From: Dehalococcoidia bacterium | GTDB lineage: Bacteria > Chloroflexota > Dehalococcoidia > SZUA-161 > SpSt-899 | Reading direction: 5' to 3' | NCBI GenBank assembly: GCA_023271215.1 | Contig: JALPYG010000003.1 | Location: forward strand, 1-36,927 | Length of the DNA: 36,927 bases | In this document: positions 7,968 through 35,904 of the stretch, piece after piece | Layout: each line of letters begins with the position of its first letter | How positions within the stretch are numbered: the first letter of the stretch is position 1 | Made by a program: the position numbers and the translations under genes | Notes under the pieces: generated by a model | Seen by the model: only the letters and a program-made list of their open reading frames with translations | Databases searched by the model: none | What the model was told of the DNA's origin: nothing

Positions 7968-7990
7968 CCGAAGAGGATCAAAGAAAGATA

Positions 7991-9145: not shown

Positions 9146-9149
9146 AGGG
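9132..9149. repeat. heptamer array carrying the bamD stop codon
   Basis: agactga aggctga agg. Confidence 0.6.
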
Positions 9150-9184
9150 TCTAGCCTTTGCGTTCTGCACTTTGAAATTCCGTA

Positions 9185-9222
9185 ACCGTTCACGGTTTAC
9201 AGTTATCGGTTCACGGTTGATG
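9185..9222. repeat. heptamer array (CGGTTCA type)
   Basis: ccgttca cggttta cagttat cggttca cggttga. Confidence 0.75.
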
Positions 9223-9334
9223 AATGCATAAAAGCAAGAGGTTCGAAGGATTGTTGATTGTCAAAGGTGTTTACCGTAAACCGTTTTCAATATCCAAAAT
9301 GCTTCAATCGTTGCATAGTTTATTGAAAAAACTG

Positions 9335-9411
9335 TGAACCTTGAATGTTGAACCATCAACCATGAACCATGAACCATCAACCATGAACCATCAACCATCA
9401 ACCGTGAAAGG
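9335..9411. repeat. heptamer array, 11 consecutive units, at the fdhD start
   Basis: tgaacct tgaatgt tgaacca tcaacca tgaacca tgaacca tcaacca tgaacca tcaacca tcaaccg tgaaagg. Confidence 0.95.
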
Positions 9412-10201: not shown

Positions 10202-10275
10202 AGACTGAAGGCTGAACCGTGAACCGTGAACCTTGAACGGTGAACCTTGAACCTTGAACGGTGAACCTTGAATAA
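10189..10275. repeat. heptamer array after fdhD
   Basis: agactga aggctga agactga aggctga accgtga accgtga accttga acggtga accttga accttga acggtga accttga. Confidence 0.95.
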
Positions 10276-10287
10276 GGGCGGAGAGAA

Positions 10288-13200
10288 GTGAAAAAAGAAC
10301 CCGTTGAAGGGCAGCATTTTAGAATTCCCGCAGACAGCAATTTTGGAGATGTTATGGTTGTCGGTGGAGGGATCAGCGGTATTCAAGCCGCTCTTGATCT
10401 GGCCACTGCAGGTTATAAGGTTTATTTGGTAGAGAAATCACCGACCATTGGCGGCAAGATGGCCCAGCTTGATAAGACCTTTCCCACTAATGACTGCTCC
10501 ATGTGCATTGAATCTCCTAAGTTTATCGAATGTGACAGGCATCCCAATATAGAGATTCTGACCTATACCGAGGTTGACGGTATAGAAGGGGAAGCAGGAG
10601 ACTTCAAGGTAAAACTGATTAAGAAGCCCAGATACATTATAGAGGGCAGATGCACGGGTTGTACTACCTGCGTAGAGTACTGCCCGGTCCCGGCCGGTGA
10701 CCCATTTAATCAGAATTTATCGAATACTAAGGCTGTCCGTATATACTTCGCTCAAGCAATCCCCCTTGTCACTTATATAGACCCCGAAACCTGCCTTTAC
10801 CTTGAAGACGGGAAATGCACTATTTGCGAAGGAGTCTGTAAAAATGACGCCATAGACCTTCATCAAACGGCCGAGAAGGTAGAAGTAAGAGTAGGGGCGA
10901 TAGTTCTGTCTCCGGGCTATGAGGTATTTGACCCTAAATTGAGGGGCGACTATGGCTACGGAAAGTTTGAGAACGTGGTAACCAGTCTTGACTTTGAACG
11001 GCTATTATGTGCCTCCGGGCCATTCGAAGGTGAGATACTGCGCCCTTCCGACATGAAGCATCCACACAATATAGCCTGGATTCACTGCGTCGGTTCCAGA
11101 CGGGTTACCCCGGGCGATAACAGCTATTGTTCCGCGGTATGCTGCACGTATACCCAGAAGCAGGTGATTTTGACAAAAGACCACGACGCCGAGGCCAGGG
11201 CTACGATATTCCATAACGACATTCGGTCCTATGGCAAGGGTTTCGAACGATTCTATCAAAGAGCAGAGAATCTTCCCGGGGTTCGATTTATAAGAAGCTA
11301 CGTATCAATAGGAAAAGAGATCCCGGAAAGCAAGAATGTAACTATACGATACTCTACTACCGAGGAGGGAGTAAAGGAAGAAGAGTTCGATCTGGTGGTA
11401 TTATCTGTTGGAATGAATCCTCCTGCTGATGTGGAGGGCCTGGCAAATACGTTCGGCATCGAGCTCAATTCTCACGGATTCCTCAAAACCAATCCTGCCA
11501 ATCCCATTGAGACATCTCGCCCGGGAATTTTTGTAAGCGGAGCCTTCCAGGGTCCTATGGATATCCCCGAGTCGGTTATGACCGCCAGCGGGGCTGCTTC
11601 CTACTGCGGTCAACTCCTTTCTTGCCGGCGAGGGAAGCTGTCCAAAGAAAGGATGTATCCGCCGGAAAGGGATGTCTCGGAAGAGGAGCCCAGGGTGGGT
11701 GTTTTTGTGTGTCATTGTGGAGCTAATATCGGAAGAGTGGTAGATGTTCCTTCCGTAGTTGAATATGCCTTGACCTTAGACAATGTTGTCCACGCTCAAG
11801 AAAATCTCTTTTCGTGTTCTACTGATGCTGCCGAGCAAATATCAAACACGATCCGCGAAAAAGGGCTCAATCGCGTGGTTGTCGCCGCCTGCACCCCCAG
11901 GACACATGAGCCGCTATTCCGGGACACACTTCGGGAGGGGGGAATTAATCAATATTTCTTCGACATGGCTAATATTAGAGAACATTGCTCCTGGGTCCAC
12001 TCTCGAGAAAAGGAAGATGCCACCGAAAAGGCAAAGGATATAGTCCGGATGTCGGTAGCTCGAACTCTTAGTTTGCAGCCCTTGCAGGAATTTGATCTGC
12101 CCGTCAGCAAGACGGGGTTGGTGGTCGGAGGAGGCCTGGCCGGGATGACCAGTGCTCTGAGCTTAGCCAACCAGGGATTTGAGGTTCACCTGGTAGAAAA
12201 GGATACAGACCTGGGGGGAATGGCGCGAAGAATTCATTTCACCCTGGAAGGGCTGGATGTTCAAGCATATTTGCGTGATGTTATACGCAAGGTATATCAG
12301 CATCCCTTAATACATGTATCACATGATGCTACCATAACTGATGTTTCCGGTTACGTGGGGAATTTCATAACCACGGTGGAATCTGAAGGAAGGGTCAAAG
12401 TGATACACCATGGCGCAACCATCCTTGCTACTGGTGCCGACGAATATAGACCCACCGAATACCTTTACGGGGAAGGCAGGGTATTGACCCTGCTGGAGTT
12501 GGAGGAGCAAATCGCCAGGGGAGAAGAAAGGCTGATTAACTCCCAGAGTCTGGTGATGATCCAATGTGTAGGTTGCAGAGAAGAGGACAGAAATTACTGC
12601 GCCCGGGTATGTTGCAGCCAGGCTATAAAGAACGCCTTGAAACTAAGAGAGATAAACCCCCGGATGGATATCTACATTCTCTATCGGGACATGATGACGT
12701 ATGGGTTGAGTGAGGATTATTATCGAGAAGCGTCAGACAAGGATGTGAAGTTCATCCGCTATGAGGCGCATGATAAACCTCAGGTGGAAGCTGTTGAGGA
12801 GGATGGTCAGTCTATCTTAAGGGTTACCGTGACCGATCCTATTTTAGGTCAGACGCTTGCTATAGATGCGGATTCACTCGCTCTGGCTGCCGCCGTTATT
12901 CCCTCGGCAGGAAGTCAGGAAATATCCCGATTATTCAAGGTACCCTTGAGCCCGGAGGGCTTCTTCCAGGAAGCTCATGTAAAATTAAGGCCCGTGGACT
13001 TCGCTGCAGATGGCGTTTTCCTGTGCGGAATAGCTCACTATCCCAAGCATATATCAGAAACGATTAGCCAGGCTTATGGAGCTGCCGGCCGGGCCGTAAC
13101 TATTCTTTCAAAGGATTCAGTCATAGCCTCAGGTGCTATTTGCGAGGTAAATGAAAGTGAGTGCGTAGGGTGTGGGGCGTGTCAATCGGTTTGTCAATAC

Positions 13201-13416
13201 GGTGCTATAGAGCTTCATGATACACGACAAGGCAAAAAGGCCAGGGTTATTCCTGTTCTCTGTAAAGGAGATGGTCTCTGTAACGCAAAGTGTCCAACGG
13301 GGGCTATTTCACTAAAGCACTATACCGATGAAGAGGTCTTTCGCCAAATCGACGCCGCGGTTCCAGCCTTACGTGGAGAAGTCAGAAGTCAGAGAATAGA
13401 GAACAGAATCGTCTGA
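10288..13416 (+). CDS. bamE: BamE-like protein with two HdrA modules
   Basis: two FAD Rossmann segments (VMVVGGGISGIQAALDLA and GLVVGGGLAGMTSALSLA), HdrA-type CHCGANIG, several ferredoxin clusters; 1042 aa. Confidence 0.78.
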   Translation: MKKEPVEGQHFRIPADSNFGDVMVVGGGISGIQAALDLATAGYKVYLVEKSPTIGGKMAQLDKTFPTNDCSMCIESPKFIECDRHPNIEILTYTEVDGIEGEAGDFKVKLIKKPRYIIEGRCTGCTTCVEYCPVPAGDPFNQNLSNTKAVRIYFAQAIPLVTYIDPETCLYLEDGKCTICEGVCKNDAIDLHQTAEKVEVRVGAIVLSPGYEVFDPKLRGDYGYGKFENVVTSLDFERLLCASGPFEGEILRPSDMKHPHNIAWIHCVGSRRVTPGDNSYCSAVCCTYTQKQVILTKDHDAEARATIFHNDIRSYGKGFERFYQRAENLPGVRFIRSYVSIGKEIPESKNVTIRYSTTEEGVKEEEFDLVVLSVGMNPPADVEGLANTFGIELNSHGFLKTNPANPIETSRPGIFVSGAFQGPMDIPESVMTASGAASYCGQLLSCRRGKLSKERMYPPERDVSEEEPRVGVFVCHCGANIGRVVDVPSVVEYALTLDNVVHAQENLFSCSTDAAEQISNTIREKGLNRVVVAACTPRTHEPLFRDTLREGGINQYFFDMANIREHCSWVHSREKEDATEKAKDIVRMSVARTLSLQPLQEFDLPVSKTGLVVGGGLAGMTSALSLANQGFEVHLVEKDTDLGGMARRIHFTLEGLDVQAYLRDVIRKVYQHPLIHVSHDATITDVSGYVGNFITTVESEGRVKVIHHGATILATGADEYRPTEYLYGEGRVLTLLELEEQIARGEERLINSQSLVMIQCVGCREEDRNYCARVCCSQAIKNALKLREINPRMDIYILYRDMMTYGLSEDYYREASDKDVKFIRYEAHDKPQVEAVEEDGQSILRVTVTDPILGQTLAIDADSLALAAAVIPSAGSQEISRLFKVPLSPEGFFQEAHVKLRPVDFAADGVFLCGIAHYPKHISETISQAYGAAGRAVTILSKDSVIASGAICEVNESECVGCGACQSVCQYGAIELHDTRQGKKARVIPVLCKGDGLCNAKCPTGAISLKHYTDEEVFRQIDAAVPALRGEVRSQRIENRIV

Positions 13417-13448
13417 CCTCTGACTTCTATTTTCTGTCTTCTGCCTTA
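13382..13448. repeat. bipolar heptamer array with hairpin at the bamE 3' end
   Basis: agtcaga agtcaga gaataga gaacaga ... tctgacc tctgact tctattt tctgtct tctgcct; 11-bp stem AGAAGTCAGAG 13384-13394 / CTCTGACTTCT 13418-13428. Confidence 0.8.
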
Positions 13449-13462
13449 GGAGTGAGATAAGA

Positions 13463-14230
13463 ATGGGTACAGGGTTTGAGTTTAAGCCAAGGATCTTAGG
13501 TTTTTTATGCAATTGGTGCTGCTACGCAGGGGCCGACCTTGCCGGAGTTTCCCGGTATCAATACCCCCCTCACATAAGGGTGATAAGGCTGATGTGCTCC
13601 GGCAGAGTAGACCTGGCATTTATTCTCCGAGCTTTCTCAAACGGAACAGACGGGGTGTTTATCGGCGGTTGTTGGCTGGGCGAATGCCATTATATTACCG
13701 AAGGGAATTACGATGCATTAAGCATGATGCATCTATGTAGAAAATTACTGGAGCACATAGGAGTGAACCCCGACAGGTTAAGGCTTGAATGGGTATCTGC
13801 CTCTGAAGGAATCCGTTTCGCCGAAATTATGAATGACTTTACCAGGAAGCTGAAGGAGTTAGGTCCTCTTGGAATAGGCGAAGGAAGAGACGTAAATGGA
13901 TTGAAATTAAAACTTGAAGCAGCTAGAAATTTGGTTCCCTACATTAAGCTGGTGGAAAGGGAGAGATTGAGAGTACATTTTGATACCGAAGACGAATATA
14001 ACGAATTCTTCACCAGTGACGAGGTAAATTGGTTATTCGACGAATTAATTGGTGATAAATTGTCACTAAGCCAAATAATGTTACTCCTGCGGGAAAGACC
14101 CCTTTCAACCGGTGAAATCTCCGAGATTTTAGGCCTAAGCCTGTCTGAAGTATCAAGACACCTTAATATTTCAGCAAGGAAAGGATTGACCAGATTCAGC
14201 GAAAGGCAGAAACGCTTTGCGCCTGCTTGA
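13463..14230 (+). CDS. bamF: BamF-like MvhD/FrhD-type protein with C-terminal HTH-like extension
   Basis: FLCNWCCYAGADLAGVSR, GCWLGECHYITEGNYDA; C-terminal RPLSTGEISEILGLSLSEVSRHLNISARKGL. Confidence 0.8.
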   Translation: MGTGFEFKPRILGFLCNWCCYAGADLAGVSRYQYPPHIRVIRLMCSGRVDLAFILRAFSNGTDGVFIGGCWLGECHYITEGNYDALSMMHLCRKLLEHIGVNPDRLRLEWVSASEGIRFAEIMNDFTRKLKELGPLGIGEGRDVNGLKLKLEAARNLVPYIKLVERERLRVHFDTEDEYNEFFTSDEVNWLFDELIGDKLSLSQIMLLLRERPLSTGEISEILGLSLSEVSRHLNISARKGLTRFSERQKRFAPA

Positions 14231-14265
14231 GGGGAAAGCGAAAAGACCAGAAATAGGACAGAAGC

Positions 14266-14718
14266 ATGGATCACGATAAAACTGACCAGATCATAAATAA
14301 ATATCAGGGCGATGCCAGTTCACTAATTCAGATATTACTGGAGATTCAGAGCCAAAATCGTTGGCTTCCTAGAGAAGTATTAGAGAAGGTCAGCAAGAAA
14401 TTAGAAGTGCCTTTAAATCGGATACAGCATATAGTCACCTTTTATAAAGCCTTCAGTTTAATCCCTAAAGGACGCCATGAAATTCACGTATGTATGGGCA
14501 CTGCCTGCCATGTTCGTGGTGCGACGCGCGTCCTCGAGACGGTGCAAGACCTGACCGGAATTAAACCCGGCGAAACGGACTTTGATTTGAAGTTCAGCCT
14601 GGAAACTGTTAACTGCATCGGCTGCTGTGCTTTAGGACCGGTGATGGAAATCGATGGGAAGACCCACGGTAAGTTGGCGCCGGCCGAGACAGCAGACGTA
14701 TTGAAAAACTATGAGTAG
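14266..14718 (+). CDS. bamG: BamG-like NuoE-family [2Fe-2S] subunit
   Basis: HEIHVCMGTACHVRGA and NCIGCCALGPVMEIDGK. Confidence 0.82.
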   Translation: MDHDKTDQIINKYQGDASSLIQILLEIQSQNRWLPREVLEKVSKKLEVPLNRIQHIVTFYKAFSLIPKGRHEIHVCMGTACHVRGATRVLETVQDLTGIKPGETDFDLKFSLETVNCIGCCALGPVMEIDGKTHGKLAPAETADVLKNYE

Positions 14719-14727
14719 GATAAAACT

Positions 14728-16644
14728 ATGTCGCCGATAAATTCGCCCGCTGAATTGGAAGAATTCAGGAAGGGCATCATGTCGAGAAGAGACCCAGCCA
14801 CGCCCTGCGTTTCAATATGTGCCGGTACCGGTTGTATTGCCTCCGGTGCGGATGAAGTCATCGTAGCTTTCAAAGCAGAGATTGAAAAGCGGGACTTACA
14901 GGCTGATGTGGATATCAAAGGGACCGGGTGCCCTGGATTCTGTGAGCGAGGGCCGGTGGTGATTATTTATCCCGAGGAGATATGCTATCTCCAGGTAACG
15001 CCTGAAGATGTTTCCGATATTGTCTCACAGACCATAGAGGCATCAGGGGGAGACCCCCTGAAACCCCCCGTCGTCGATCGTCTTCTCTACGTTGACCCCA
15101 CCACGGGCGAAAAAGCAATCCATGAATCCGATATCCCCTTTTATAAGAATCAAAAACGAAACTTGATCTGCGATAATACTAAGATTGATTCAAAGAGCAT
15201 CGATGACTATCTGGCGATTGATGGTTATTCCGCATTAGCCAAAGCTCTTACCGGAATGACTCCCGAGGAAGTATTGGAGGAAGTAAAAAAATCAAACCTG
15301 AGAGGGAGGGGTGGTGGCGGTTTTCCCACGGGAAGAAAGTGGGAAGGTTCCCGCAATGTCCCTGAGCCAATAAAATATGTGATCGTCAATGCCGATGAGG
15401 GTGACCCCGGTGCATTCATGGATAGAGCTCTCCTCGAAGGAAATCCTCATTCAATCCTTGAGGGGTTGATCATCGGAGGCTATGCCATCGGTGCCCACGA
15501 GGGCTATGTTTACGTTCGGCAGGAATACCCCCTGGCAGTTGAAAATGTGACCCTCGCGATCAAGCAAGCTGAGGAATATGGTTTTCTGGGGAAAAACATC
15601 CTTGGCTCGGGCTTTGATTTCACGGTTAAGGTGCACCAGGGGGCCGGCGCTTTCGTTTCTGGTGAATCGACTGCTCTGATGAGGGCATTGGAGGGCAGCG
15701 TAGGTGAGCCCCGACCGAAGTATATTCGCTCCAACGTCAAGGGCCTTTGGGAAAAACCCAGCGTGATGAATAATGTTGAGACGTGGGCGAATGTGCCGCT
15801 GATCATCAATAGGGGCGCTGACTGGTTTACGCAATTCGGAACGGAAGGAAGCAAGGGTACGAAGATTTTTTCCCTGGTCGGCAAGATAACCAATACCGGC
15901 CTTGTGGAAGTACCCATGGGCATGACCCTGAAAGATATTGTCTACAAGATAGGTGGCGGCATCCCTGGAGGCAAGAGATTCAAAGCAATACAGACCGGGG
16001 GACCGTCCGGAGGATGTATCCCTGAAGAACATTTAGATATAAAAGTTGATTTTGACGAACTCACCAAAGCCGGCTCGATGATGGGTTCAGGCGGGATGAT
16101 CGTCATGGATGAAGATACCTGTATGGTTGATGTCGCCAGGTACTTCCTTAATTTCCTCGCTGATGAATCGTGTGGCAAATGTGTCCCATGCCGTGAAGGC
16201 ATCAGGCAGATGCTTAAGATTCTGACCAATATCACCAAAGGAAAGGGACGAGTGGGCGATATCGAGTTTTTAGAGGAGCTATCCGAGGTAACTAGAGACG
16301 CCTCTCTTTGTGCCTTAGGGAGGACTGCTCCTAACCCGGTCTTAAGCACCATACGCTACTTCAGAGACGAGTATGAGGCACACATCAAGGAGAGGAAGTG
16401 CCCCGCCTATGTCTGCAAGGAGCTAATCTCGTACTACATTGACCCCGACAAGTGCGAAGCTTGCATGATTTGCCTTAGGAAATGCCCCGTAGAGGCAATC
16501 ACAGGCGGCAAGAACCAGATCCATGTAATCGACCAGGAGAAATGCACAAAGTGTGAGACTTGCTTCGAAGTTTGTCCTCCACGCTTTGGTGCAGTGAAAA
16601 AGATTTCCGGTGAGCTTGTTCCGGTTTCTCAGCCTGAAGACTGA
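14728..16644 (+). CDS. bamH: BamH-like NuoF-family flavoprotein
   Basis: NLRGRGGGGFPTGRKWE, NADEGDPGAFMDRALLEGNPHS, ESCGKCVPCREG, C-terminal 2x[4Fe-4S]. Confidence 0.85.
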   Translation: MSPINSPAELEEFRKGIMSRRDPATPCVSICAGTGCIASGADEVIVAFKAEIEKRDLQADVDIKGTGCPGFCERGPVVIIYPEEICYLQVTPEDVSDIVSQTIEASGGDPLKPPVVDRLLYVDPTTGEKAIHESDIPFYKNQKRNLICDNTKIDSKSIDDYLAIDGYSALAKALTGMTPEEVLEEVKKSNLRGRGGGGFPTGRKWEGSRNVPEPIKYVIVNADEGDPGAFMDRALLEGNPHSILEGLIIGGYAIGAHEGYVYVRQEYPLAVENVTLAIKQAEEYGFLGKNILGSGFDFTVKVHQGAGAFVSGESTALMRALEGSVGEPRPKYIRSNVKGLWEKPSVMNNVETWANVPLIINRGADWFTQFGTEGSKGTKIFSLVGKITNTGLVEVPMGMTLKDIVYKIGGGIPGGKRFKAIQTGGPSGGCIPEEHLDIKVDFDELTKAGSMMGSGGMIVMDEDTCMVDVARYFLNFLADESCGKCVPCREGIRQMLKILTNITKGKGRVGDIEFLEELSEVTRDASLCALGRTAPNPVLSTIRYFRDEYEAHIKERKCPAYVCKELISYYIDPDKCEACMICLRKCPVEAITGGKNQIHVIDQEKCTKCETCFEVCPPRFGAVKKISGELVPVSQPED

Positions 16645-16699
16645 AGACTGAAGGCTTAAGCGATCAACCTTGAACCGTGAACCGTGAACCTTGAACCAG
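16631..16699. repeat. heptamer array at the bamH 3' end
   Basis: cctgaag actgaag actgaag gcttaag cgatcaa ccttgaa ccgtgaa ccgtgaa ccttgaa. Confidence 0.92.
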
Positions 16700-16710
16700 G
16701 GTAAAGAAAG

Positions 16711-17361
16711 ATGAGTGAAATCCTTTTACAGATTGACGGAAGAGAAGTTAAAACAAGGGAAGGGGCGACCATTTTGGAGGCAGCACAAAGCGCAGGAATT
16801 GACATCCCTACGCTATGTCATCATGAAAAATTGGAACCTTATGGGGCCTGCCGAATTTGTACAGTAGAAGTAGAAACTCGCGGTAGGACAAATTTCGTTG
16901 CTGCCTGCCTTTACCCTGTAGAAGAAAATCTGGTGGTAAGAACCAGATCGGAGAAGATAGATAAAATTCGCAAGGTACTTGTGGAGTGGCTGCTGGCTCA
17001 TGCTCCAGAATCCAGGGTATTGCAAAATCTGGCTCAGGAATATAGAGTAAAGGAAGCTCGTTTTGAAAAAGAGCCGTCATTTTGCATTCTTTGCGGTCTA
17101 TGTGTAAGATATTGCGCCGAGGTCAAAAAGAAAAACGCTATTGGATTTGCTGAGAGAGGAGTAAGACGAGAGGTGATTTTCATCCCAGAGATAGCCTCTA
17201 AGGAGTGCTGGAAGTGCCAGGAATGTTTTTCGCTTTGCCCCACAGAGGCAGTACAAGCAACATTTCTCTTAACTGAAGCGCTTTGTAACTACCCGGGTTC
17301 CAGGTTCCGGGTTCACGGTTCAACGGTTAGGCAGTGCCAACCTCGCAACCTTGAACCTTGA
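16711..17361 (+). CDS. bamI: BamI-like NuoG-N-terminal-type ferredoxin subunit
   Basis: GACRICTVEV [2Fe-2S] motif, HAPESRVLQNLAQEY, CILCGLCVRYC, CWKCQECFSLCP. Confidence 0.75.
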   Translation: MSEILLQIDGREVKTREGATILEAAQSAGIDIPTLCHHEKLEPYGACRICTVEVETRGRTNFVAACLYPVEENLVVRTRSEKIDKIRKVLVEWLLAHAPESRVLQNLAQEYRVKEARFEKEPSFCILCGLCVRYCAEVKKKNAIGFAERGVRREVIFIPEIASKECWKCQECFSLCPTEAVQATFLLTEALCNYPGSRFRVHGSTVRQCQPRNLEP

Positions 17362-17387
17362 ACCTTCAACCTTGAACCTTGAACCTT
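17293..17387. repeat. two heptamer arrays of opposite polarity between bamI and hdrA-gltD
   Basis: cgggttc caggttc cgggttc acggttc ... then tgaacct tgaacct tcaacct tgaacct tgaacct. Confidence 0.92.
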
Positions 17388-20300
17388 ATGGAGACAAGAA
17401 CCGGAGTTTACATCTGCCACTGCGGGCTGAACATCGCCGCCACGGTAAATCCGGGGGAGGTAGCGGGAGATGCCGCATCCCTTCGTGACGTGGTGGTGGC
17501 CCGTGATTATATGTTCATGTGCTCTGATCCGGGGCAGGAGCTGATCATGAAGGATATCAAGGAGCAGGGCCTTAACCGGGTAGTGGTGGCCTCATGCTCG
17601 CCGATGCTCCATGAGCGCACCTTCCGCCGTGTCTGCCAGGAGGCGGGTTTGAACCCCTATCTCTTCAAGATGGCCAACATCCGCGAGCATTGCAGTTGGG
17701 TACATAAGGATGGGGCCACGGAGAAGGCGAAGGCACTTGTACGGGCGGCGGTACTGCGGGGGCATTATCAGGAACCTCTACAGACGATGGAAGTTCCCAT
17801 TAACCCGAACACGCTGGTTGTTGGTGGAGGCATTGCAGGGATACAGGCGGCCTTAGACATCGCCATTGCCGGTTATAAGGTCTACCTGGTGGAGCAGGAG
17901 CCCTCGATTGGGGGGCACATGATACAACTGGACAAGACCTTCCCCACGCTTGACTGCTCGGCGTGCATCACCACCCCTAAGATGAGCGATGCGGGCTCAC
18001 ACCCGAACATTGAGCTGCTGACCTACAGTGAGGTAACGGAGGTAGCGGGCTACATCGGCAATTTCACCGTCAAGATAAAGAGGAAATCGAGGTATGTCGA
18101 TGAGAGCAAGTGTAACGGGTGTGGCCTGTGTTTCGCGGGATGTCCGGTGGTGATGGGAAACGAGTTCGATCTGGGTCTGAGGGAGCGCAAGGCGATCTAC
18201 GTGCCCTTTCCGCAGGCGGTGCCCAACAAAGCGGTGATAGATAAGCGCGAGGAGCGACTCTGCAAGGCTGCCTGTGTGGATGCCTGCCCGATCTCGACCA
18301 ATGTACTGGGTTACATCAAGCTGATTGCTGAGGGGAAGTTTAAGGAATCATACGAGCTTATAAGGGCAACCAATCCGCTTCCGGCGGTTTGCGGCCGGAT
18401 TTGCTACGCCCCCTGCCAGGAGGCCTGCAACCGGGGGCAGATCGACGAGCATGTGGCTATTTGCGATCTCAAGAGATTTGCCACCGATCAGGTGGATATC
18501 GCTAAGCTTGAAGTCCCCCAAATCACGGCGACGGGCAAAAGGGTGGCGGTTATCGGATCGGGGCCTGCCGGGCTGGCGGCGGCCAATGACCTTGCCCTAG
18601 AGGGGCATGGAGTGACCGTCTTTGAAGCCCTGCCCGAACCCGGGGGCATGCTTCGCTATGCCATCCCGGAGTATCGTCTTCCCCGGGAGCTTCTTCGCCA
18701 GGAGATAGATTACATCCGCAGGCTGGGGGTGGAGATAAGAACGGGGGTTGAGGTGGGAAAGGACATCTCCCTTGCCGAGGTAAGAAATGAATACCAGGCG
18801 GTCTTCATCTCCGCCGGTGCACAGGGGGGGATGAGGTTAGGGGTGGAGGGAGAGGATCTCCCCGGGGTGATGGAGGGCATCAGGTTCCTTCGGGAGGTAA
18901 ACCTTTCCGAGTTTCGAGTTCCGAGTTCCGAGGTGGGGGGTGGGGACTCAGCACTCAGTACTCAGCACTCGGTACTCGGTCGGGTGGCGGTGATTGGGGG
19001 AGGCAATACGGCTGTTGACTGCGCTCGGACGGCCAGGCGCCTTGGAGGGGAGGAGGTGAGGATCATCTACCGTCGCTCCCGGGCCGAGATGCCGGCCTCA
19101 AGCGAAGAGGTAACTGCGGTGGAGGAGGAAGGGATAGGGATAGATTTTCTGACGGCACCGGTGCGATTTCTCTCTGAGGACGGGAGACTCACGGGGATAG
19201 AGTGCATCAGGATGAAGCTCGGGGAGCCGGATGCCAGTGGCCGGGCCCGTCCGGTCCCCATTGAGGGGTCGGAGTTCAGGATGGGTGTGGATACGGTGAT
19301 AGCTGCTCTGGGACAGGTGCCGGAGACCGGATTCGTCCGGGAACTCGGGATATCACTGGGGAAGACGGGCACGATAGCGATCGATGCCCGTACCGGGGCG
19401 ACGAGCATCGAAGGGGTATTTGCCGGGGGGGACGTGGTGACCGGACCTGCCTTTGCCATCGATGCCATCGCTGCGGGGAAGAGGGCGGCGCGTTCGATAG
19501 GCCGCTATCTGAATGGCGAGCCGATGGAGGTTGAGGAAGAGGAGGGTAAGCCGGAGAGGCTCTCCGAGGAGGAGGTCAAGTCATTAAAGGAACAGTTTCC
19601 AGCGGAGAAGCGGGTGGAGATGGGGGAGGAACCGGTAAAAGAGAGGGTTGCTGACTTCCGAGAGGTAGCCCTGGGGTATACTGAGTCGGAGGCAGTTGGG
19701 GAGGCTTCACGGTGTCTTGCAGGGCAGATAGAGGGATGTATCGAGTGCCGGGAGTGCGAGAGGCGGTGTGAGCCCGGAGCGATCAATTATGAGATGAAGG
19801 ATGAAACTATCCAGGTGGAGGTGGGGAGCATCATCCTGGCCACTGGTTACGATCAGTTCGATCCCTCGGGTATACCGGAATACGGGTATGGAAGGTATGA
19901 GAACGTTATCACCGGGTTGGAATTTGAGCGGCTCTCAAATGCTGCCGGGCCGACGGCGGGGCAGATACTGCTGAAGAATGGCCGGCCACCCCGGAGTGTA
20001 GCCATTATTCATTGTGTGGGCAGCCGGGATAAGAACTTTCACGAGTACTGTTCCCGGGTTTGCTGCATGTATGCTTTGAAATTTGCGCATCTGATCAGGG
20101 AGAAGACCGATGCCGAAGTATATCAACTGTACATTGACATGCGATGTTTTGGGGAGGGGTACGAGGAATTTTACGAGCGTGTGGGGACCGAGGACGGGGT
20201 GAACTTTATCCGGGGGAAGGCGTCGCGGGTAACCGACCAGGCTTTGAACGAGGAGGAGGAAGGGAAGCTCATCGTCTGCGTGGAAGATACGCTGCTGGGC

Positions 20301-20813
20301 AGTTTCATGCGGGTGCCGGTGGAGATGGTGATTCTTTGCACTGCGCTGGAGCCGAGGGCGAACACGGAGGAGATGGCCCGGCTCTTCTCCATCGGGCAGA
20401 GAGCGGATGGATTCTTCCTGGAGAGGCATGTCAAGCTTGCCCCAATAGCGACCACGACCGAGGGGCTGTTCGTTGCCGGGTGCTGCGAAGGCCCGCGGGA
20501 CATCCCGGACACGGTGGCTCAAGCTAAGGCGGCCGCTTCCGATGTGTTGAGTCTGCTGGCACGGGGCAAGGTGGAGATCGAGCCCATCGTTGCCTCGGTG
20601 GACGAGGAGATCTGCGCCGGCTGCGGTCTGTGTGAGAAGATATGCTCCTATAGTGCGCCCTCGATTGACAGGCTTCGGAGAGTGACGGTGGTCAATCAGG
20701 CTCTGTGTAAGGGTTGCGGTGCCTGTGCCGTCACCTGCCCTTCAGGGGCGATGAGCTTAAGCCATTTCACTCGTCGCCAGATACTGGAGGAAGTGGAGGC
20801 CTTGGTCTATTAG
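17388..20813 (+). CDS. HdrA-like protein with an internal GltD-type NAD(P)H oxidoreductase module
   Basis: HdrA motifs (ICHCGLNIA, VVGGGIAGIQAALDIA, FPTLDCSACITTPKM) interrupted by GltD-like CKAACVDACPI...CGRICYAPCQEACNRG...VAVIGSGPAGLAAANDLA...VAVIGGGNTAVDCARTARR, then the HdrA C-terminus and 2x[4Fe-4S]. Confidence 0.85.
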   Translation: METRTGVYICHCGLNIAATVNPGEVAGDAASLRDVVVARDYMFMCSDPGQELIMKDIKEQGLNRVVVASCSPMLHERTFRRVCQEAGLNPYLFKMANIREHCSWVHKDGATEKAKALVRAAVLRGHYQEPLQTMEVPINPNTLVVGGGIAGIQAALDIAIAGYKVYLVEQEPSIGGHMIQLDKTFPTLDCSACITTPKMSDAGSHPNIELLTYSEVTEVAGYIGNFTVKIKRKSRYVDESKCNGCGLCFAGCPVVMGNEFDLGLRERKAIYVPFPQAVPNKAVIDKREERLCKAACVDACPISTNVLGYIKLIAEGKFKESYELIRATNPLPAVCGRICYAPCQEACNRGQIDEHVAICDLKRFATDQVDIAKLEVPQITATGKRVAVIGSGPAGLAAANDLALEGHGVTVFEALPEPGGMLRYAIPEYRLPRELLRQEIDYIRRLGVEIRTGVEVGKDISLAEVRNEYQAVFISAGAQGGMRLGVEGEDLPGVMEGIRFLREVNLSEFRVPSSEVGGGDSALSTQHSVLGRVAVIGGGNTAVDCARTARRLGGEEVRIIYRRSRAEMPASSEEVTAVEEEGIGIDFLTAPVRFLSEDGRLTGIECIRMKLGEPDASGRARPVPIEGSEFRMGVDTVIAALGQVPETGFVRELGISLGKTGTIAIDARTGATSIEGVFAGGDVVTGPAFAIDAIAAGKRAARSIGRYLNGEPMEVEEEEGKPERLSEEEVKSLKEQFPAEKRVEMGEEPVKERVADFREVALGYTESEAVGEASRCLAGQIEGCIECRECERRCEPGAINYEMKDETIQVEVGSIILATGYDQFDPSGIPEYGYGRYENVITGLEFERLSNAAGPTAGQILLKNGRPPRSVAIIHCVGSRDKNFHEYCSRVCCMYALKFAHLIREKTDAEVYQLYIDMRCFGEGYEEFYERVGTEDGVNFIRGKASRVTDQALNEEEEGKLIVCVEDTLLGSFMRVPVEMVILCTALEPRANTEEMARLFSIGQRADGFFLERHVKLAPIATTTEGLFVAGCCEGPRDIPDTVAQAKAAASDVLSLLARGKVEIEPIVASVDEEICAGCGLCEKICSYSAPSIDRLRRVTVVNQALCKGCGACAVTCPSGAMSLSHFTRRQILEEVEALVY
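18908..18979. repeat. heptamer array (CGAGTTC and ACTCAGN types) inside the hdrA-gltD coding sequence
   Basis: cgagttt cgagttc cgagttc cgagg ... gactcag cactcag tactcag cactcgg tactcgg. Confidence 0.92.
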
Positions 20814-21374: not shown

Positions 21375-22145
21375 ATGGAGTATCGGGAAATAATCCTGCT
21401 GAAGCAGGGCGAAATGGCCAGGATCACCATCAACCGACCCCCGGTTAACGTGATGACCTTGAACACCATAGCCGAGCTGAACCAGGCACTAGGGGGATTG
21501 AGGGAAGATCCCGAGGTCAAGGTGGTGATCATCCGGGGAAGCGGGGAGCGGGCCTTCTCCGCTGGCGTGGAGGTGGCCGACCATCTGGGCGAGAAGTTGC
21601 CCCTGATGTTGGAGGAGTTTGGCCGGTTGTTCAAGTCGTTGAGGAACGTAGGCAAACCGGTCGTCGCCGTGGTAAATGGCATCGCTTTGGGCGGCGGCTG
21701 CGAACTGGTGGCCGGGTGCGATATGGCTATCGCCTCGGAGAAAGCTCAGTTCGGTCAGCCGGAGATAAAGCTGGGTGTGAACCCTCCGCCGGCAAGCGTG
21801 CTTTTCCCCAGGCTCATAGGGATGAAAAAGGCCCTGGAGTTGATCCTCACCGGCGATTCCATAGATGCGTGGGAGGCGCAGAGGATAGGTCTGGTGAACA
21901 AAGTGGTCCCTCACGAGGAACTGGACCAGGCTGCCGAGGAATTCGCCGGCCGGCTTCTGGAGAAGAGCGGGTACATACTGAAGTTGACCCGGGGGGCCAT
22001 CTACGAGGTTAGCGAGATAAGCGACTACGAGAAGGCCCTCGACCTTATGACCTACCGGTCGCGTAAGATCATGGAGTCTGAGGACGCCGTCGAGGGACTG
22101 ACCTCTTTCATCGAAAAGCGCAAGCCGGTCTGGAAAAACCGGTGA
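21375..22145 (+). CDS. enoyl-CoA hydratase/isomerase family; candidate cyclohexadienoyl-CoA hydratase
   Basis: crotonase motifs INRPPVNVM, AFSAGVEVADH, NGIALGGGCELVAGCDMAIA. Confidence 0.85.
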   Translation: MEYREIILLKQGEMARITINRPPVNVMTLNTIAELNQALGGLREDPEVKVVIIRGSGERAFSAGVEVADHLGEKLPLMLEEFGRLFKSLRNVGKPVVAVVNGIALGGGCELVAGCDMAIASEKAQFGQPEIKLGVNPPPASVLFPRLIGMKKALELILTGDSIDAWEAQRIGLVNKVVPHEELDQAAEEFAGRLLEKSGYILKLTRGAIYEVSEISDYEKALDLMTYRSRKIMESEDAVEGLTSFIEKRKPVWKNR

Positions 22146-23306
22146 TGGCAAGTATAATAGACGAACTGGAGCCCATCTTTAATCCCCGAAGCATCGCCGT
22201 GATAGGAGCCTCAGATAATCCCGCTAAGCTGGGCTATCACTGCATGAAGAGCCTGAAAGAGAGCGGGCTTCAGTCCATACATCCCATAAATCCGCGCTCT
22301 TCGGAGATCTGGGGATTTCCGGCCTATCCCTCGCTGAGAGAGGTACATCAGGAAATCGACCTGGCTATCGTGATTGTGCCGGCCTCTGCGGTTCCTTCAG
22401 CAATAGAGGACTGTGCCCGGAAGGGGATAAAGGGCATTGTCCTTATGACTGGCGGATTCAGGGAAGCGGAAGACCCGGCGAGGGCCGAGCTTCAGGATGA
22501 GATAGCTTCGCTGGCCGTCAAGAGTGGAATCAGGGTGATCGGCCCCAACACATTTGGATTTGTCAATCTCTCGGTCCATCTGAATGCCTCCTTTACCCCG
22601 GAATTCCTCGCCACCCGAAGGGGCAACATAAGCCTCATAAGTCAGAGCGGCGGGGTATGCCACCTTCTGTCCCCCTTGCTGATGGAATCGGAGAGGGTGA
22701 TAGGTTTCTCCAAGATTGTGGGCCTGGGCAACCGGTGCAATCTTGATTTTGCCGACGTGCTGGAGTACCTGGCGGTGGACCCGGAGACCAGGGTGATCCT
22801 GATGTATCTCGAGGGGATAGATGATGCTCGCAGGCTTATCGAGGTTGCCCGGCGAGTGGCGCCCCAAAAGCCCATAGTAGCCTTCAAGTCAGGAAAGACG
22901 ACCACTGCGGACAGAGCGGCTTATTCTCGTACCGGTTCCCTGGCTGGAAAGCACGAGGTCTATCTCGCCGCTTTCAGGCAGGCCGGCATCCTGTTAGCGA
23001 GCGATTTCGAGGAATTGCTGGATATCTGACCCGAACATTGATGCCCTCTTGTTTCTCTCTGCCTATGCCTCAGCCAACGAGCCCGTAATCAGAGCGCTCG
23101 CTGCAGTGTTGAAGGAGGAGATCGAGGCTCGCCGGAAGCCGATCCTCACCTGCTTCCCGGCACCGCTGGGAATCTGGGAGGAAAGGGTCGAGCTGGAGGA
23201 GAGCGGCATTCCGGTTTATGCTACGCCGGAGAGGGCGGCTAGATCTCTGGCAGGTTTGGTCTGCTACGGGGATATCCCGGCTTTGGCGCTATTCACGAAA
23301 ACTTGA
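22142..23306 (+). pseudogene. acyl-CoA synthetase (ADP-forming) alpha-type, internally deleted and frameshifted
   Basis: 22142-23029 encodes the CoA-binding and ligase part (NPRSIAVIGASDNPAKLG, SQSGGVCHLL, GRTGSLAGK-like); 23049-23306 encodes a C-terminal piece (LFLSAYASANEPVIRAL...) in another frame. Confidence 0.7.
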
Positions 23307-24372
23307 ACCTCCCATATTTTTCCACCATTTTTTGGTCAATGGAAGGTCCCGTCTTGTGGATAACCTCCGCTAAGTCTCTCATTTCCACATCCCTTGCAAT
23401 GCCGGTCTGGATATTCTCTCTAAAGGGGATCAGCGAGGCTTTAAGGCAGATCTGCCTTATGTCCGCGCCGCTACGACCCTCGGTCATCTGTGCCAGGTTG
23501 TCGAAATCAATATCCTCTGCCAGCGGCTTTCCCTGGAGATTCAATTCAAAAATCTTTTTCCTCGCCTGAGAATCAGGGGGAGGAACGTAGATAGTCTCGT
23601 CAAATCTTCCCGGTCTAAGGGCGGCATGGTCAATGCTCCATGGCTCGTTGGTCGCTCCGATGAAGAGGAGGTTCTCATTTTTCGACTCCATCCCCTCCAT
23701 CTCCGCCAAAATCTGAGGAACAACCCGTTGCATCACCGTAGACCCGGAATCCTTCCTCTTTGGAATCAGTGCTTCAACCTCGTCAATAAAAATCACCGCT
23801 CTCTTCTGATTCCTCGCCGAAGAAAACAGCTTCGCTATATTCTGCTCACTCTCCCCGACCCACTTGCTCATAATTTCGCTCGGCTTTATGCTGAAGAATA
23901 CCGCATCCACTTCATTGGCAACCGCCTTTGCGATGTAAGTCTTGCCTGTGCCAGGGGGACCGTAGAGCAAGATTCCTCCCCCGGATCCGATCCCAAACCT
24001 CTTCGCCTCTTCAGGATATAGAAAAGGATAGATTATCTTGTTCTTGATCTCCTCTTTTATATTCTCCAGTCCTGCCACGTCGTCGAAGGTTACGGCAGGT
24101 CGTTCCTGCAAGATGAATTCTGCACCTTCTCCCCTTCCCGCAGCAGCCTCCTTTTCCTTAAGAGTGATAGACTTTGCCTTCTCCAGGAGTTTCTGGGCGT
24201 TTTCAACCCTTATCAACTTCACCCTCCCCTGCGATTCGGAAGACGCATTAAAGAGTTGTCTGCTCGCCTGCAGGTAATAGTCTCTGGCTTTTCGCAACTC
24301 GCTTTGCGCTTCCGCCTTCATTGCCTCGGCGATACATTCTTCGGCTTTTTGAAGAAATACGTCAATGCTCAT
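23293..24372 (-). CDS. Vps4-like (meiotic clade) AAA ATPase with N-terminal MIT-like helical domain
   Basis: GPPGTGKTYIAKAVANE, FFSIKPSEIMSKWVGESEQNIAKLF, VIFIDEVEALIPKR, ATNEPWSIDHAALRPGRF; N-term three-helix AEECIAEAMKAEAQSELRKARDYYLQASRQLFNA...AQKLLEKAKSI; C-term PSIDQKMVEKYGRF. Confidence 0.82.
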   Translation of the reverse strand: MSIDVFLQKAEECIAEAMKAEAQSELRKARDYYLQASRQLFNASSESQGRVKLIRVENAQKLLEKAKSITLKEKEAAAGRGEGAEFILQERPAVTFDDVAGLENIKEEIKNKIIYPFLYPEEAKRFGIGSGGGILLYGPPGTGKTYIAKAVANEVDAVFFSIKPSEIMSKWVGESEQNIAKLFSSARNQKRAVIFIDEVEALIPKRKDSGSTVMQRVVPQILAEMEGMESKNENLLFIGATNEPWSIDHAALRPGRFDETIYVPPPDSQARKKIFELNLQGKPLAEDIDFDNLAQMTEGRSGADIRQICLKASLIPFRENIQTGIARDVEMRDLAEVIHKTGPSIDQKMVEKYGRFKFS

Positions 24373-24375
24373 CGC

Positions 24376-24975
24376 CTACCCCTTCCGCATCATGTCCTCG
24401 ACTTCCTTGATACCCCTGGAAATCCTCTCATCCAGGCCCTTTTCCTCAGTCTCTACCTCCCCTTCCATCGTTTTTACAATTTCGTTAATGTCTCTATCAG
24501 AGAAACCTTCGGCACTCAAGATACCCTCGCTGGCCATGTCTAAAGTAGTGGACAACGCCTCGTCGATGCCCTCTGCCTGTGCCATCGCCTTCTCAAACTC
24601 CACCTGCATGCCGGCGATCTTTTCTACATCTGGGCCTTCGGTAATGGACTCGCTTATGTCCTTAGCAAAGGTTACAAAATCCCCGGAGATCTTGACCATC
24701 TCCCGTTGAAGTCTGGCCTCGTCCATCAGCAGGAGCATCCGCTGTCCCTTTCTTATCCGTTCCTGCAAGACCAGATATTTGGCAGCCTGCCTCTTCAAAA
24801 ACTTCTCTTCATTTAGTCTAGCTGCCTGCCTTCCCTGATCGTATATCGTCTTTTGCAGGTCCATCAGCTTCGAGATGTAGCCTTTAACCCTTGCTTTCGC
24901 CTTCCTGTACCTTATCTCCCTCTCGATCTCCTTCTCTTCCCTTGATTTTCCCTTCAACTTTTTCAATATGCCCAT
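24376..24975 (-). CDS. ESCRT-III/Snf7-like coiled-coil protein
   Basis: basic N-terminus, long helical hairpin, FAKDISESITEGPDVEKIAGMQVEFEKAMAQAEGIDEAL resembling ESCRT-III alpha3-alpha4, acidic C-terminal half ending in a MIM-like helix; 3 bp from the Vps4-like gene. Confidence 0.65.
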   Translation of the reverse strand: MGILKKLKGKSREEKEIEREIRYRKAKARVKGYISKLMDLQKTIYDQGRQAARLNEEKFLKRQAAKYLVLQERIRKGQRMLLLMDEARLQREMVKISGDFVTFAKDISESITEGPDVEKIAGMQVEFEKAMAQAEGIDEALSTTLDMASEGILSAEGFSDRDINEIVKTMEGEVETEEKGLDERISRGIKEVEDMMRKG

Positions 24976-24992
24976 TCTTTCACTCCTTTACG

Positions 24993-25112
24993 AGGTTCCA
25001 GGTTGACGGGTTTACGGTTCACGGTTCACGGTTCTGCATAGTCTAGAGTCTAGAGTCTAGAGTCTAGAGTTCCCCGCTCCACCCCTACCTTCAACCTTCA
25101 GCCTTCAGCCTA
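24993..25112. repeat. three adjacent heptamer arrays
   Basis: cggttca type 24993-25035; agtctag x4 25040-25070; ccttcaa ccttcag ccttcag 25085-25112. Confidence 0.92.
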
Positions 25113-25828
25113 TCCACCTGAGTAGCCAGGATTACAGTTATATTGTCCCTTCCGTTCGTTTCTTTCGCAGAGTTTATGAGCTTCTCGCAGGCTTCATCGA
25201 GGTCTTTTGAACTTATTATAATTCGCCTTATTTCTTCACCCCGTAAGGAATCTGTCAAGCCATCAGAGCACAACAACAGATATTGACCACAAATCCGGAT
25301 CTCGTAGAGGTCAGGTTTTATATCGGCATCCGTTCCCATCACCCTGGTAATGATATTCTTTTCCGGATGATCAAACGCCTCCTCTTCTGAGATAATACCT
25401 CTATCCACCAGTTCTTGAACGAAGGAATGGTCCTTGGTCTGCTGCTTTATCTCCTCTCCTATCAGATAAGCCCTGCTGTCGCCTATATTTGCGATCACAC
25501 ATCTTTCTTCTTCAATCAAGGCAGCCACCAGCGTTGTGCCCATATTACTATAGTCTGGATTTTCCCGGGCTAAACTGTATATCTCCCTATTTGTCTTCTC
25601 AAAAGCCTGCTGAAGCAGCATCCTGAAGTCAGTAATCCCCTCGCTAAATCCTTTGTTCACCGCCTCTTCTAGCTCTATCACTGCCAGCCCACTGGCAATC
25701 TCGCCGGCGCTGTGCCCGCCCAGACCGTCGGCAACGGCAAGGAGGTAAATGTCGCCGAAGCGCGTTACCGCAAGGCTATCCTCGTTATTTGCTCTCTTCC
25801 CGCTGTCAGTAAGAGATGCTATCTTCAT
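25091..25828 (-). CDS. PP2C/PPM-family serine/threonine phosphatase
   Basis: MKIASLTDSGKRANNEDSL, VADGLGGHSAGEIAS, MGTTLVAALI, NIGDSRAYLI, LLCSDGLTD, GRDNITVIL. Confidence 0.92.
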   Translation of the reverse strand: MKIASLTDSGKRANNEDSLAVTRFGDIYLLAVADGLGGHSAGEIASGLAVIELEEAVNKGFSEGITDFRMLLQQAFEKTNREIYSLARENPDYSNMGTTLVAALIEEERCVIANIGDSRAYLIGEEIKQQTKDHSFVQELVDRGIISEEEAFDHPEKNIITRVMGTDADIKPDLYEIRICGQYLLLCSDGLTDSLRGEEIRRIIISSKDLDEACEKLINSAKETNGRDNITVILATQVDRLKAEG

Positions 25829-26157
25829 CCTTCTGTCCTCGCTTTGCGGATAATTCTATCCATATCGTCTAATCTACGGGGATCTAATGTTACATCACGC
25901 TCAACGCAATAGTTAAGGGCGGCGATTTTACGGTCGATCAAATCCTGTGTCTCACTGGATTTCACCTGGGTTTTTAAGGAATTCAGGTAATCGATACATT
26001 TGTTCAGCGCACTCAAGCGCGTCTCGCGACGTTCCGAGCTGCTATATGCCTGTCGTAAGAGCATATCCGACATCTCGCAATAGACCGTTATTCTCTCCAG
26101 TCGATCTATGGTTATCTTCACCTTTTGTTTGTGTTCTATTTCCAGAACGTCTGCCAA
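25825..26157 (-). CDS. hypothetical small helical protein
   Basis: 110 aa, 4-bp overlap (ATGA) with the PP2C gene. Confidence 0.55.
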   Translation of the reverse strand: MADVLEIEHKQKVKITIDRLERITVYCEMSDMLLRQAYSSSERRETRLSALNKCIDYLNSLKTQVKSSETQDLIDRKIAALNYCVERDVTLDPRRLDDMDRIIRKARTEG

Positions 26158-26162: not shown

Positions 26163-26369
26163 TTAAGTTTCGTGGAGACGATAGAAATCAGCAACATTGA
26201 AGCTAAAGAGGGCCCGCCCGAGCGCCGTTGCGTAATCCAGGTGGGCCTGGTCACTTCGCTCAATCATATTCTCCTCCAGAGCTGTGGTCACATTTACACC
26301 ACGCGCTCGCAATGAGCGAACCAGGTCCTGATCCATCGCATCTTCGTCGATGTACAAATGAATTGTCAT
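26163..26369 (-). CDS. DUF5615 PIN-like toxin, apparently truncated
   Basis: LYIDEDAMDQDLVRSLRARGVNVTTALE...ALFSFNVADFYRLH; ends abruptly. Confidence 0.65.
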   Translation of the reverse strand: MTIHLYIDEDAMDQDLVRSLRARGVNVTTALEENMIERSDQAHLDYATALGRALFSFNVADFYRLHET

Positions 26370-26674
26370 GAATCGTCTTGAACGAAGCGAATATGCCCCC
26401 GTTCGAGTGTTTTGGCCTCAGCTTCTTCAACAGCAATGTCGTATTCGACCTCTTCCCGGTTGGCATGGTAATAAGCCAGGGCAGCATATACTTGTGCCAG
26501 TGACAGGTGTCCGGTACGGTTTGCGATCTCCTCAGGGCTCAACCCCAGTTTGTACCACCCCACAACGCGCTGGACCGTGACACCGGTTCCAGCGATCCGT
26601 GGCCGTCCCCCGCGCACCTCCGGCGTTTGAACGATAAGCTCTCCTATGTCGGTCACCTTTGGCATTGTCATCAC
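26366..26674 (-). CDS. DUF433 family antitoxin-like protein
   Basis: GRPRIAGTGVTVQRVVGWYKLGLSPEEIANRTGHLSLAQVYAALAYYHANREEVE; overlaps DUF5615 gene by 4 bp. Confidence 0.82.
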   Translation of the reverse strand: MMTMPKVTDIGELIVQTPEVRGGRPRIAGTGVTVQRVVGWYKLGLSPEEIANRTGHLSLAQVYAALAYYHANREEVEYDIAVEEAEAKTLERGHIRFVQDDS

Positions 26675-26791
26675 ACCCTCCGCTTAAGAATCCTTCATCT
26701 GGTTCCAACGCTCCCTGTCGTGTCCGTGGCCCGTGTCCGGAAGTCCCCCTTCCTTCAGCCTAATCCCCTTCAGTCTAACCTACCTGAGTAG

Positions 26792-34606: not shown

Positions 34607-35893
34607 ATGAGAAAATGTATGCGCATTTTCTTTCTATTGATCTTTATCCTGGGCATTCTATCCGCGGGAATGGCCAGTGCTGCTTCCCCGGTTATTCACG
34701 TGCTCCAGGTTGACGGAATCATCGTCCCGGTGGTGGCCGATTTTATCGACCAGGGAATCACCGAGGCCGAGGACCGCGGGGCCGCCGCACTGGTGATTAA
34801 GCTGAATACCCCTGGTGGTACAGTTCCCCCCACCAGAGACATCGTAGAGCGAATCCTCGCTGCTCGAGTGCCGGTGGTGGTCTATGTCGACCGCTGGGCC
34901 GGCTCTGCAGGCACCTTTATCACCCTGGCTTCCCACGTAGCGGCGATGGCACCGGGCAGTAATATCGGCGCAGCTACCCCCGTAGCATTGGGGGAGGGCG
35001 AGGTGCCAGACGAGGCACAACGAAAAGCGATTGAGGATGCGGCCGCTTGGATCAGAAGCATCGCCGAAATGCGCGGTCGCAACCCTGAGCAGGCTGACTT
35101 GACCGTCACCGAAGGTAAGTCTTTTACCGATAGCGAAGCCTTAGAGGCTAACCTCATCGATCTGCGGGCCGACAGCCTCCAGGATCTTATCTCGCAGCTT
35201 GACGGGATGGAGGTAACAATTCACGGAGAGGAGATAATCCTTAACACCGAAGAGTACGTACTGGATGAAATCGAGATGACCCTCGTCCAGCGCTTTCTCC
35301 ATGCGATAAGCGATCCCAATATCGCCTATACTCTCCTGAGCATTGGCTTGCTGGGGCTCACATTGGAGCTTTACAGCCCGGGCACCATCTTTCCCGGTGT
35401 AGTAGGTGCCATCAGCCTTCTGCTGGCATTCTATTCTCTGGCGATGCTCGAGGCCTACTGGGCGGGGATTATCCTGATCCTGCTTGCATTTGCTCTCTTT
35501 GCGACCGAGGTGTTCGTTGCCAGCGGGGGTCTGCTCACCGCCGGGGGGTTGGCGGCGCTGATATTCGGGTCTTTAATACTGTTCGATGGGCGGCCAGCGA
35601 TGCTCGATATAGACTGGTGGCTCATCGCCATTGTAGCGGTCAGCGTCGGAGCTTTCTTTATCTTTGTGGTTCAGGCGGTGGTGCGCACCCAGCGCCGCAA
35701 GCAACCGACGGGGCAAGAAGGGCTCATCGGCATGGTAGCAGAGGTCAAGAGTGCGCTAAATCCCAGGGGGACCGTGTTCGTACACGGTGAACTCTGGGAG
35801 GCTATACTGGATGAGGGACAGGCCGATCCCGGAGAGGAGGTAACGGTAACCGACGTAAGAGGTTTGAAACTCAGGGTGACCAAAAACAAATAG
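34607..35893 (+). CDS. NfeD-type membrane protein with ClpP-like serine protease domain
   Basis: LKLNTPGGTVPPTRDIVERIL, GSAGTFITLASH, multi-TM region, C-terminal OB-like domain. Confidence 0.88.
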   Translation: MRKCMRIFFLLIFILGILSAGMASAASPVIHVLQVDGIIVPVVADFIDQGITEAEDRGAAALVIKLNTPGGTVPPTRDIVERILAARVPVVVYVDRWAGSAGTFITLASHVAAMAPGSNIGAATPVALGEGEVPDEAQRKAIEDAAAWIRSIAEMRGRNPEQADLTVTEGKSFTDSEALEANLIDLRADSLQDLISQLDGMEVTIHGEEIILNTEEYVLDEIEMTLVQRFLHAISDPNIAYTLLSIGLLGLTLELYSPGTIFPGVVGAISLLLAFYSLAMLEAYWAGIILILLAFALFATEVFVASGGLLTAGGLAALIFGSLILFDGRPAMLDIDWWLIAIVAVSVGAFFIFVVQAVVRTQRRKQPTGQEGLIGMVAEVKSALNPRGTVFVHGELWEAILDEGQADPGEEVTVTDVRGLKLRVTKNK

Positions 35894-35904
35894 GAGGTCT
35901 GTAA

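Follow-up and report, generated by a model that had tools for sequence, protein, structure and literature searches.

Endosomal sorting complex required for transport (ESCRT) systems that pair a filament protein with an ATPase were described in a recent survey as confined to archaea and eukaryotes. In the archaeal main-clade systems, a kinase, a phosphatase and proteins of arCOG09748 and arCOG08177 are added to Vps4 and ESCRT-III (PMC10936438; Makarova et al. 2024). Bacterial Snf7 or PspA genes adjoining AAA+ ATPases have also been reported, as has the movement of Vps4-like ATPases from archaea to bacteria; the transferred Vps4 genes were without snf7, and the Snf7-AAA operons carried ABC transporter genes, not a kinase and PP2C (PMC11237479; Ravi et al. 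2024). Our literature search, which did not extend to subscription papers and preprints, found no paper joining ESCRT-III, Vps4 and Chloroflexota. Here we analyzed a 36,927-nucleotide stretch of DNA (the window), contig C74 of a Dehalococcoidia genome (Chloroflexota; 1.58 Mb, 68% complete, 150 contigs), in which the initial annotation had placed an ESCRT-III/Vps4-like operon with a PP2C phosphatase. Because bacterial Snf7/PspA-AAA+ neighbours and Vps4-like ATPases are already on record (PMC11237479), the novelty lies in an archaeal-type module that is complete and includes its kinase and phosphatase; ESCRT relatives in bacteria as such are not new.

The window locus was interpreted as an archaeal kinase/phosphatase-associated ESCRT system that was horizontally transferred, and as one of two such loci in this genome; we give this reading a probability of about 0.82. 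The ORF (open reading frame) check of the window sequence showed four minus-strand ORFs at 23293-26157, exactly as first annotated, with a 4-bp overlap (25825-25828) between the kinase-remnant and PP2C genes, a 115-bp gap between the PP2C and Snf7-like genes, and a 3-bp gap (24373-24375) between the Snf7-like and AAA genes. The features are as follows.

23293-24372, minus strand: Vps4-like AAA ATPase, 359 aa, with an MIT-like three-helix N-terminus (about residues 3-68), a single AAA cassette and a C-terminal helix (Pfam, CdvC profile, AlphaFold2 helices)
24376-24975, minus strand: ESCRT-III/Snf7-like protein, 199 aa, predicted to form filaments (Thermococcus plasmid relative, Pfam Snf7 in the family, AlphaFold2)
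25091-25828, minus strand: PP2C-type Ser/Thr phosphatase of the Stp1 family, 245 aa (NF033484, Thermococcus PP2C)
25825-26157, minus strand: apparent remnant of the C-terminal tail of a Ser/Thr kinase, 110 aa, catalytic domain gone (intact sister kinase, synteny break, substitution rates)
26164-26791, no strand assigned: replacement segment with a DUF433 gene (26366-26674) and a DUF5615 gene (26163-26369) (blastn breakpoints, Pfam)

The archaeal counterpart was found on the Thermococcus peptonophilus plasmid NZ_CP014751.1, where the gene order is 172 aa-607 aa-198 aa-201 aa-kinase-AAA-PP2C-ESCRT-III. The Thermococcus AAA protein was 54% identical over 393 aa to C107_AAA1, an ATPase of the second locus of the Dehalococcoidia genome (contig C107, L007), and the kinases of the two groups were 44-50% identical over the kinase domain. 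Chloroflexota relatives were also found for the 198-aa protein (52%), the 201-aa protein (41%), the 607-aa coiled-coil protein (29% over its C-terminal half) and the 172-aa protein, whose relative lies upstream on C107. The second locus holds relatives of two accessory Thermococcus genes (29%, E=5e-17; 28%, E=2e-18), which are absent from the window locus; these fit the published descriptions of arCOG09748 and arCOG08177, an assignment made by description, not by profile. With per-gene identities of 28-54%, the gene content of the Chloroflexota locus is, as judged by sequence comparison, almost gene-for-gene archaeal. Thus both systems have a Vps4-like AAA protein, an ESCRT-III-like protein, a Ser/Thr kinase and PP2C in one cluster. 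However, the Chloroflexota system has a bacterial host, with two loci in the genome studied here, includes a second MIT-AAA clade not seen in the Thermococcus locus, and has partners of its own, namely a PEGA/CARDB kinase, SPFH proteins and a transglutaminase-CDC48_N protein.

The Snf7-like protein of the window was compared with the ESCRT-III-like protein of the Thermococcus plasmid, and the two were 45% identical over 168 aa (E=1.6e-43). The score of this match was 176 bits, while the highest score among 500 shuffles of the Thermococcus protein was 33 bits. In a small tree the two proteins grouped together at 100/100. The Pfam Snf7 profile (PF03357; gathering score 27.3) was exceeded by the same-family protein at L010:2675-3274 (32.1 bits) and narrowly missed by the C107 copy (26.7 bits); these two copies are 34-35% identical to the window protein. 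The family aligned with the profile in the same register, with E values of 1.1e-7 for the L010 copy, 5e-6 for the C107 copy, 4e-4 for the Thermococcus protein and 0.1 for the window protein. The alignment also showed a conserved C-terminal helix with the pattern LD-[DE]-RI, a candidate MIT-interacting motif. The AlphaFold2 model (pLDDT, the model's own confidence score, 82) placed helices at residues 3-6, 12-53, 57-110, 117-153, 160-176 and 181-198, a predicted order as expected for ESCRT-III, with a long alpha1-alpha2 hairpin followed by further helices. The bacterial PspA/Vipp1 (IM30) proteins belong to the same ESCRT-III superfamily, but the PspA_IM30 profile (PF04012) matched neither these Snf7-like proteins nor anything in genomes G000-G004 or G448, and PspA identity was ruled out on this ground.

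The window ATPase matched Pfam AAA (2e-43) and AAA_lid_3 and carries one AAA cassette. Its N-terminal region of about 70 residues was modeled by AlphaFold2 as three helices (3-22, 26-45 and 49-68). The best full-length Protein Data Bank (PDB) match of the N-terminal profile was a small domain of chitin synthase 1, 2mpk (E 9e-4 to 0.004), which we take to be an MIT domain; the MIT chains of VPS4B matched at E 0.085 or weaker. Vps4_C (cut-off 21.3) was below the cut-off in the window protein (E=0.02, 15.3 bits) and above it in the close relatives L007 (22.5 bits) and L075 (29.0 bits). The CdvC profile aligned over residues 17-355, which cover the MIT region and the AAA cassette, with 257 bits. 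The window pair therefore shares with crenarchaeal CdvB/CdvC an ESCRT-III-like protein and an MIT-AAA protein, but the ATPase is far under the CdvC equivalog cut-off (650 bits), the host has FtsZ, and CdvA did not appear, though no search was aimed at it. The phylogenetic tree showed two ESCRT-linked ATPase clades. Clade A comprised archaeal Vps4, C107_AAA1, which was sister to the Thermococcus ATPase (97/85), and the ATPase of Candidatus Chlorohelix allophototropha. Clade B comprised the window-type MIT-AAA proteins at 95/98, apart from archaeal Vps4 and from Cdc48; the window ATPase did not group with Cdc48 D1, Cdc48 D2 or FtsH. The tree was sampled without eukaryotic, Asgard and TACK Vps4 and does not settle the deeper branching of clade B. 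The ATPase first annotated as MIT-AAA and Vps4-like thus sits in a clade of its own, outside the archaeal 'main' Vps4 clade as sampled here, and its N-terminus is MIT-like by prediction.

Next, the second locus and the other relatives were examined. The C107 locus encodes a Snf7-like paralogue, which shares 35% identity with that of the window, and two Vps4-like ATPases, one an AAA protein and one an MIT-AAA protein, each with Vps4_C over the Pfam cut-off. It also encodes a coiled protein of 193 aa, a membrane kinase bearing PEGA and CARDB repeats, a further kinase and a further PP2C. Related loci were present in four further Chloroflexota metagenome-assembled genomes (MAGs; G001, G002, G003 and G448) and on a plasmid of Candidatus Chlorohelix allophototropha. 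The Vps4-like and ESCRT-III-like genes stand together at the window locus and at L007, L008, L009 and L010, and this linkage, whose conservation the initial annotation had named as supporting evidence, was kept in all loci of the genus with sequence spanning both genes. In G001 an SPFH gene lies directly upstream of the pair. In G002 an expanded cluster spans about 20 kb and encodes proteins of the SPFH, zinc-ribbon, transglutaminase-CDC48_N and ESCRT-III-like types and a further AAA protein; in the protein at L018:6357-7979 a transglutaminase core and CDC48_N are joined, and it may be an adaptor. When plasmids were searched with the Snf7-like protein of C107, two records matched, the Thermococcus peptonophilus plasmid and a closed circular 375-kb plasmid of Chlorohelix, on which FHA-domain genes adjoin the Snf7-like gene. 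About 30 kb around the circle from these genes, L051:1-4655 encodes a kinase, a Vps4-like ATPase of clade A and two more coiled proteins of ESCRT-III-like type. Hence the pair and the phosphatase of the initial annotation were borne out: they have counterparts in an archaeon, at another locus of the same genome and on a closed plasmid of a bacterium. Its four-gene system proved to be much larger, with extra kinases and ATPases. None of the outcomes that the initial annotation had listed as refuting was clearly observed, and the fold search, though it did not discriminate, was not contrary.

The phosphatase of the window passed the Stp1 equivalog NF033484 (263 bits against a cut-off of 230), which upheld its annotation as PP2C, and was 41% identical to the PP2C that adjoins the Thermococcus ESCRT-III-like gene. 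Of the kinase and phosphatase that mark the archaeal main clade, PP2C is intact in the window while the kinase is truncated. In the sister genome G002, the frame overlapping PP2C is an intact 751-aa Ser/Thr kinase (L008:6296-8551; Pkinase 8e-43) that ends in the same C-terminal tail as the 110-aa frame of the window, and a G003 contig starts inside the same kinase. The blastn comparison showed that nucleotide homology between the window and the sister genome ends at 26163 and resumes at 26792; in between, the window has 628 bp with DUF433 (5e-19) and DUF5615 (1.5e-7) in place of a 3.1-kb stretch of the sister genome that encodes the catalytic part of the kinase and a transmembrane protein. The ratio of nonsynonymous to synonymous substitutions (dN/dS) was 0.7-1.1 for the 110-aa frame in comparison with 0.05-0.28 for its three neighbours (Snf7-like, 0.05-0.17; ATPase, 0.14-0.23), all approximate values from few substitutions. 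The AAA, Snf7-like and PP2C genes are thus under purifying selection. Because of the intact kinase in G002, the synteny break and the raised dN/dS, the 110-aa frame, first annotated as a helical protein, is best read as the decaying C-terminal tail of the kinase. A match of this tail to a conserved C-terminal helical domain of other kinases was not supported (hhalign probability 2.4). The DUF433 and DUF5615 genes (26163-26674) are toxin-antitoxin-like and lie at the break where the kinase sequence was lost. Another kinase, on C107 (L007:11030-12526), has a truncated DUF5615 joined to its N-terminus. The system thus has two kinases cut beside modules of this type, for which chimeric assembly may be the cause.

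The distribution of the Snf7-like protein was investigated in three overlapping genome samples. Matches were found in 2 of 400 Chloroflexota genomes, 5 of 393 Dehalococcoidia genomes and 1 of 158 genomes of the Chlorohelix class; the positive genomes were G000-G003, G448 (another family, 94% complete) and Chlorohelix. A GTDB pattern scan gave only Dehalococcoidia/Chloroflexi records, with a method that misses distant relatives and did not search other bacterial phyla sensitively, and a search of viral contigs gave no match. The sparse presence, the ATPase nested among archaeal ones and the plasmid location point to horizontal transfer from archaea to bacteria. Archaeal contamination or mis-binning would also place archaeal-like genes in a MAG of this completeness and contig number, but this explanation is very improbable. 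The window holds mfd and other bacterial genes, C107 holds secD/F, mraZ, rsmH, ftsA and ftsZ (named by eye from sequence), two other assemblies have this locus with identical neighbouring genes, and relatives are found on a plasmid, complete and circular, that belongs to a named species of Chloroflexota. Since the bacterial flanks are shared between independent assemblies and the Chlorohelix plasmid is closed, contamination was excluded.

Several results weigh against an ESCRT system in the window. The Snf7-like protein alone scored 12.7 bits with Pfam Snf7, under the gathering score. Foldseek with its model gave no match under E 0.001 and ranked BAR domains above CdvB, and the PDB profile search with its family reached CdvB only at E 1.6-2.1; because Foldseek did not discriminate, the ESCRT-III identity is based on sequence and gene context, not on fold. 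The MIT match of the ATPase was also below the Pfam cut-off of 30 (E=0.0058 at full length; E=4.9e-4, 20.6 bits with the N-terminal 90 aa), the best Foldseek matches of the AAA model were p97 structures, and the ATPase is, by its tree position, not an orthologue of the archaeal 'main' Vps4. The sparse spread counts in the same direction. A coiled-coil substrate or adaptor working with a Cdc48-like unfoldase, that is, a proteostasis module with a superficial ESCRT likeness, could account for the nearness of the AAA cassette to p97/Cdc48 among solved structures, in both sequence and Foldseek, and for a Snf7-like model that matches BAR domains as well as CdvB. We consider it unlikely. Genuine Cdc48 D2 domains favour the Cdc48 model over CdvC by 136-170 bits, but the window ATPase does so by 8.5 bits, and the other ESCRT-linked ATPases, archaeal ones included, by 7 to 19 bits; on this score balance, Cdc48 identity was ruled out. 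A single cassette with an MIT-like N-terminus, Vps4_C in relatives, and a partner whose family passes Pfam Snf7 and which is common to the archaeal ESCRT-type locus also argue against it. A kinase/AAA-based anti-phage or conflict system with borrowed ESCRT parts is somewhat less likely still. The adjoining toxin-antitoxin-like genes, the sporadic distribution with one relative on a plasmid, and matches of PADLOC kinase and AAA models would agree with defence; however, the PADLOC models respond to kinase and AAA domains in general, none of them matches the Snf7-like protein, and the archaeal counterparts were described as ESCRT systems (PMC10936438).

If the transferred ESCRT system functions as its relatives suggest, the Snf7-like protein would polymerise on the inner face of the cytoplasmic membrane, and the AAA ATPase, drawn by its MIT-like domain to the filament protein's C-terminal tail, would use ATP to remodel and disassemble the polymer. 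Ser/Thr kinases and PP2C would set the phosphorylation of filament subunits or cargo and would thereby switch the module, and the FHA-domain genes of Chlorohelix would fit phosphorylation-dependent recruitment. The module likely serves to repair membranes, form vesicles or sort proteins; a dedicated role in cell division is disfavoured because the contig with the second locus also carries ftsA-ftsZ. Since its own kinase is broken, the window locus would either do without one or depend on second-locus kinases acting in trans. We judge it slightly better than an even chance that a functioning multi-subunit ESCRT machine under phosphorylation control, acquired from archaea, operates in some bacteria. 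It would comprise several paralogues of ESCRT-III-like type, Vps4-like ATPases of two kinds, SPFH partners and sensor kinases whose repeat domains are extracellular, with a second Vps4-like lineage elaborated in Chloroflexota. If so, ESCRT systems are not confined to archaea and eukaryotes. The gene-rich version seen in bacteria, one example of which is on the closed plasmid of an enriched phototroph that has a name, runs counter to the statement of such a restriction and shows that ESCRT machinery can cross the domain boundary. It also offers a bacterial setting for testing the kinase/phosphatase control of ESCRT that was proposed in archaea from gene neighbourhoods.

Other features of the window were also noted. 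The gap between the PP2C and Snf7-like genes contains short tandem repeats of ctagact and gtgaacc units (about 24990-25065), and a frame at 9341 starts with repeat-derived text resembling them. At 22142-23306, an acyl-CoA synthetase-like gene, intact as 472 aa in G003 (L009:2901-4319), is broken into frames of 295 aa and 85 aa and converges on the AAA gene with a 14-bp overlap. A large AFOR/HdrA/NuoF-like cluster at 5155-20813 resembles the Bam electron-transfer module of benzoyl-CoA reductase. The bacterial neighbourhood of the initial annotation held for mfd, but its 'bam operon', probably this cluster, is a Bam/Hdr-type electron-transfer module and not the outer-membrane BAM. At 34607-36687, 8 kb from the ESCRT-type locus, whose relatives also include SPFH genes, an NfeD1b gene precedes an SPFH/stomatin-like gene; the two are a common pair of membrane-microdomain genes.

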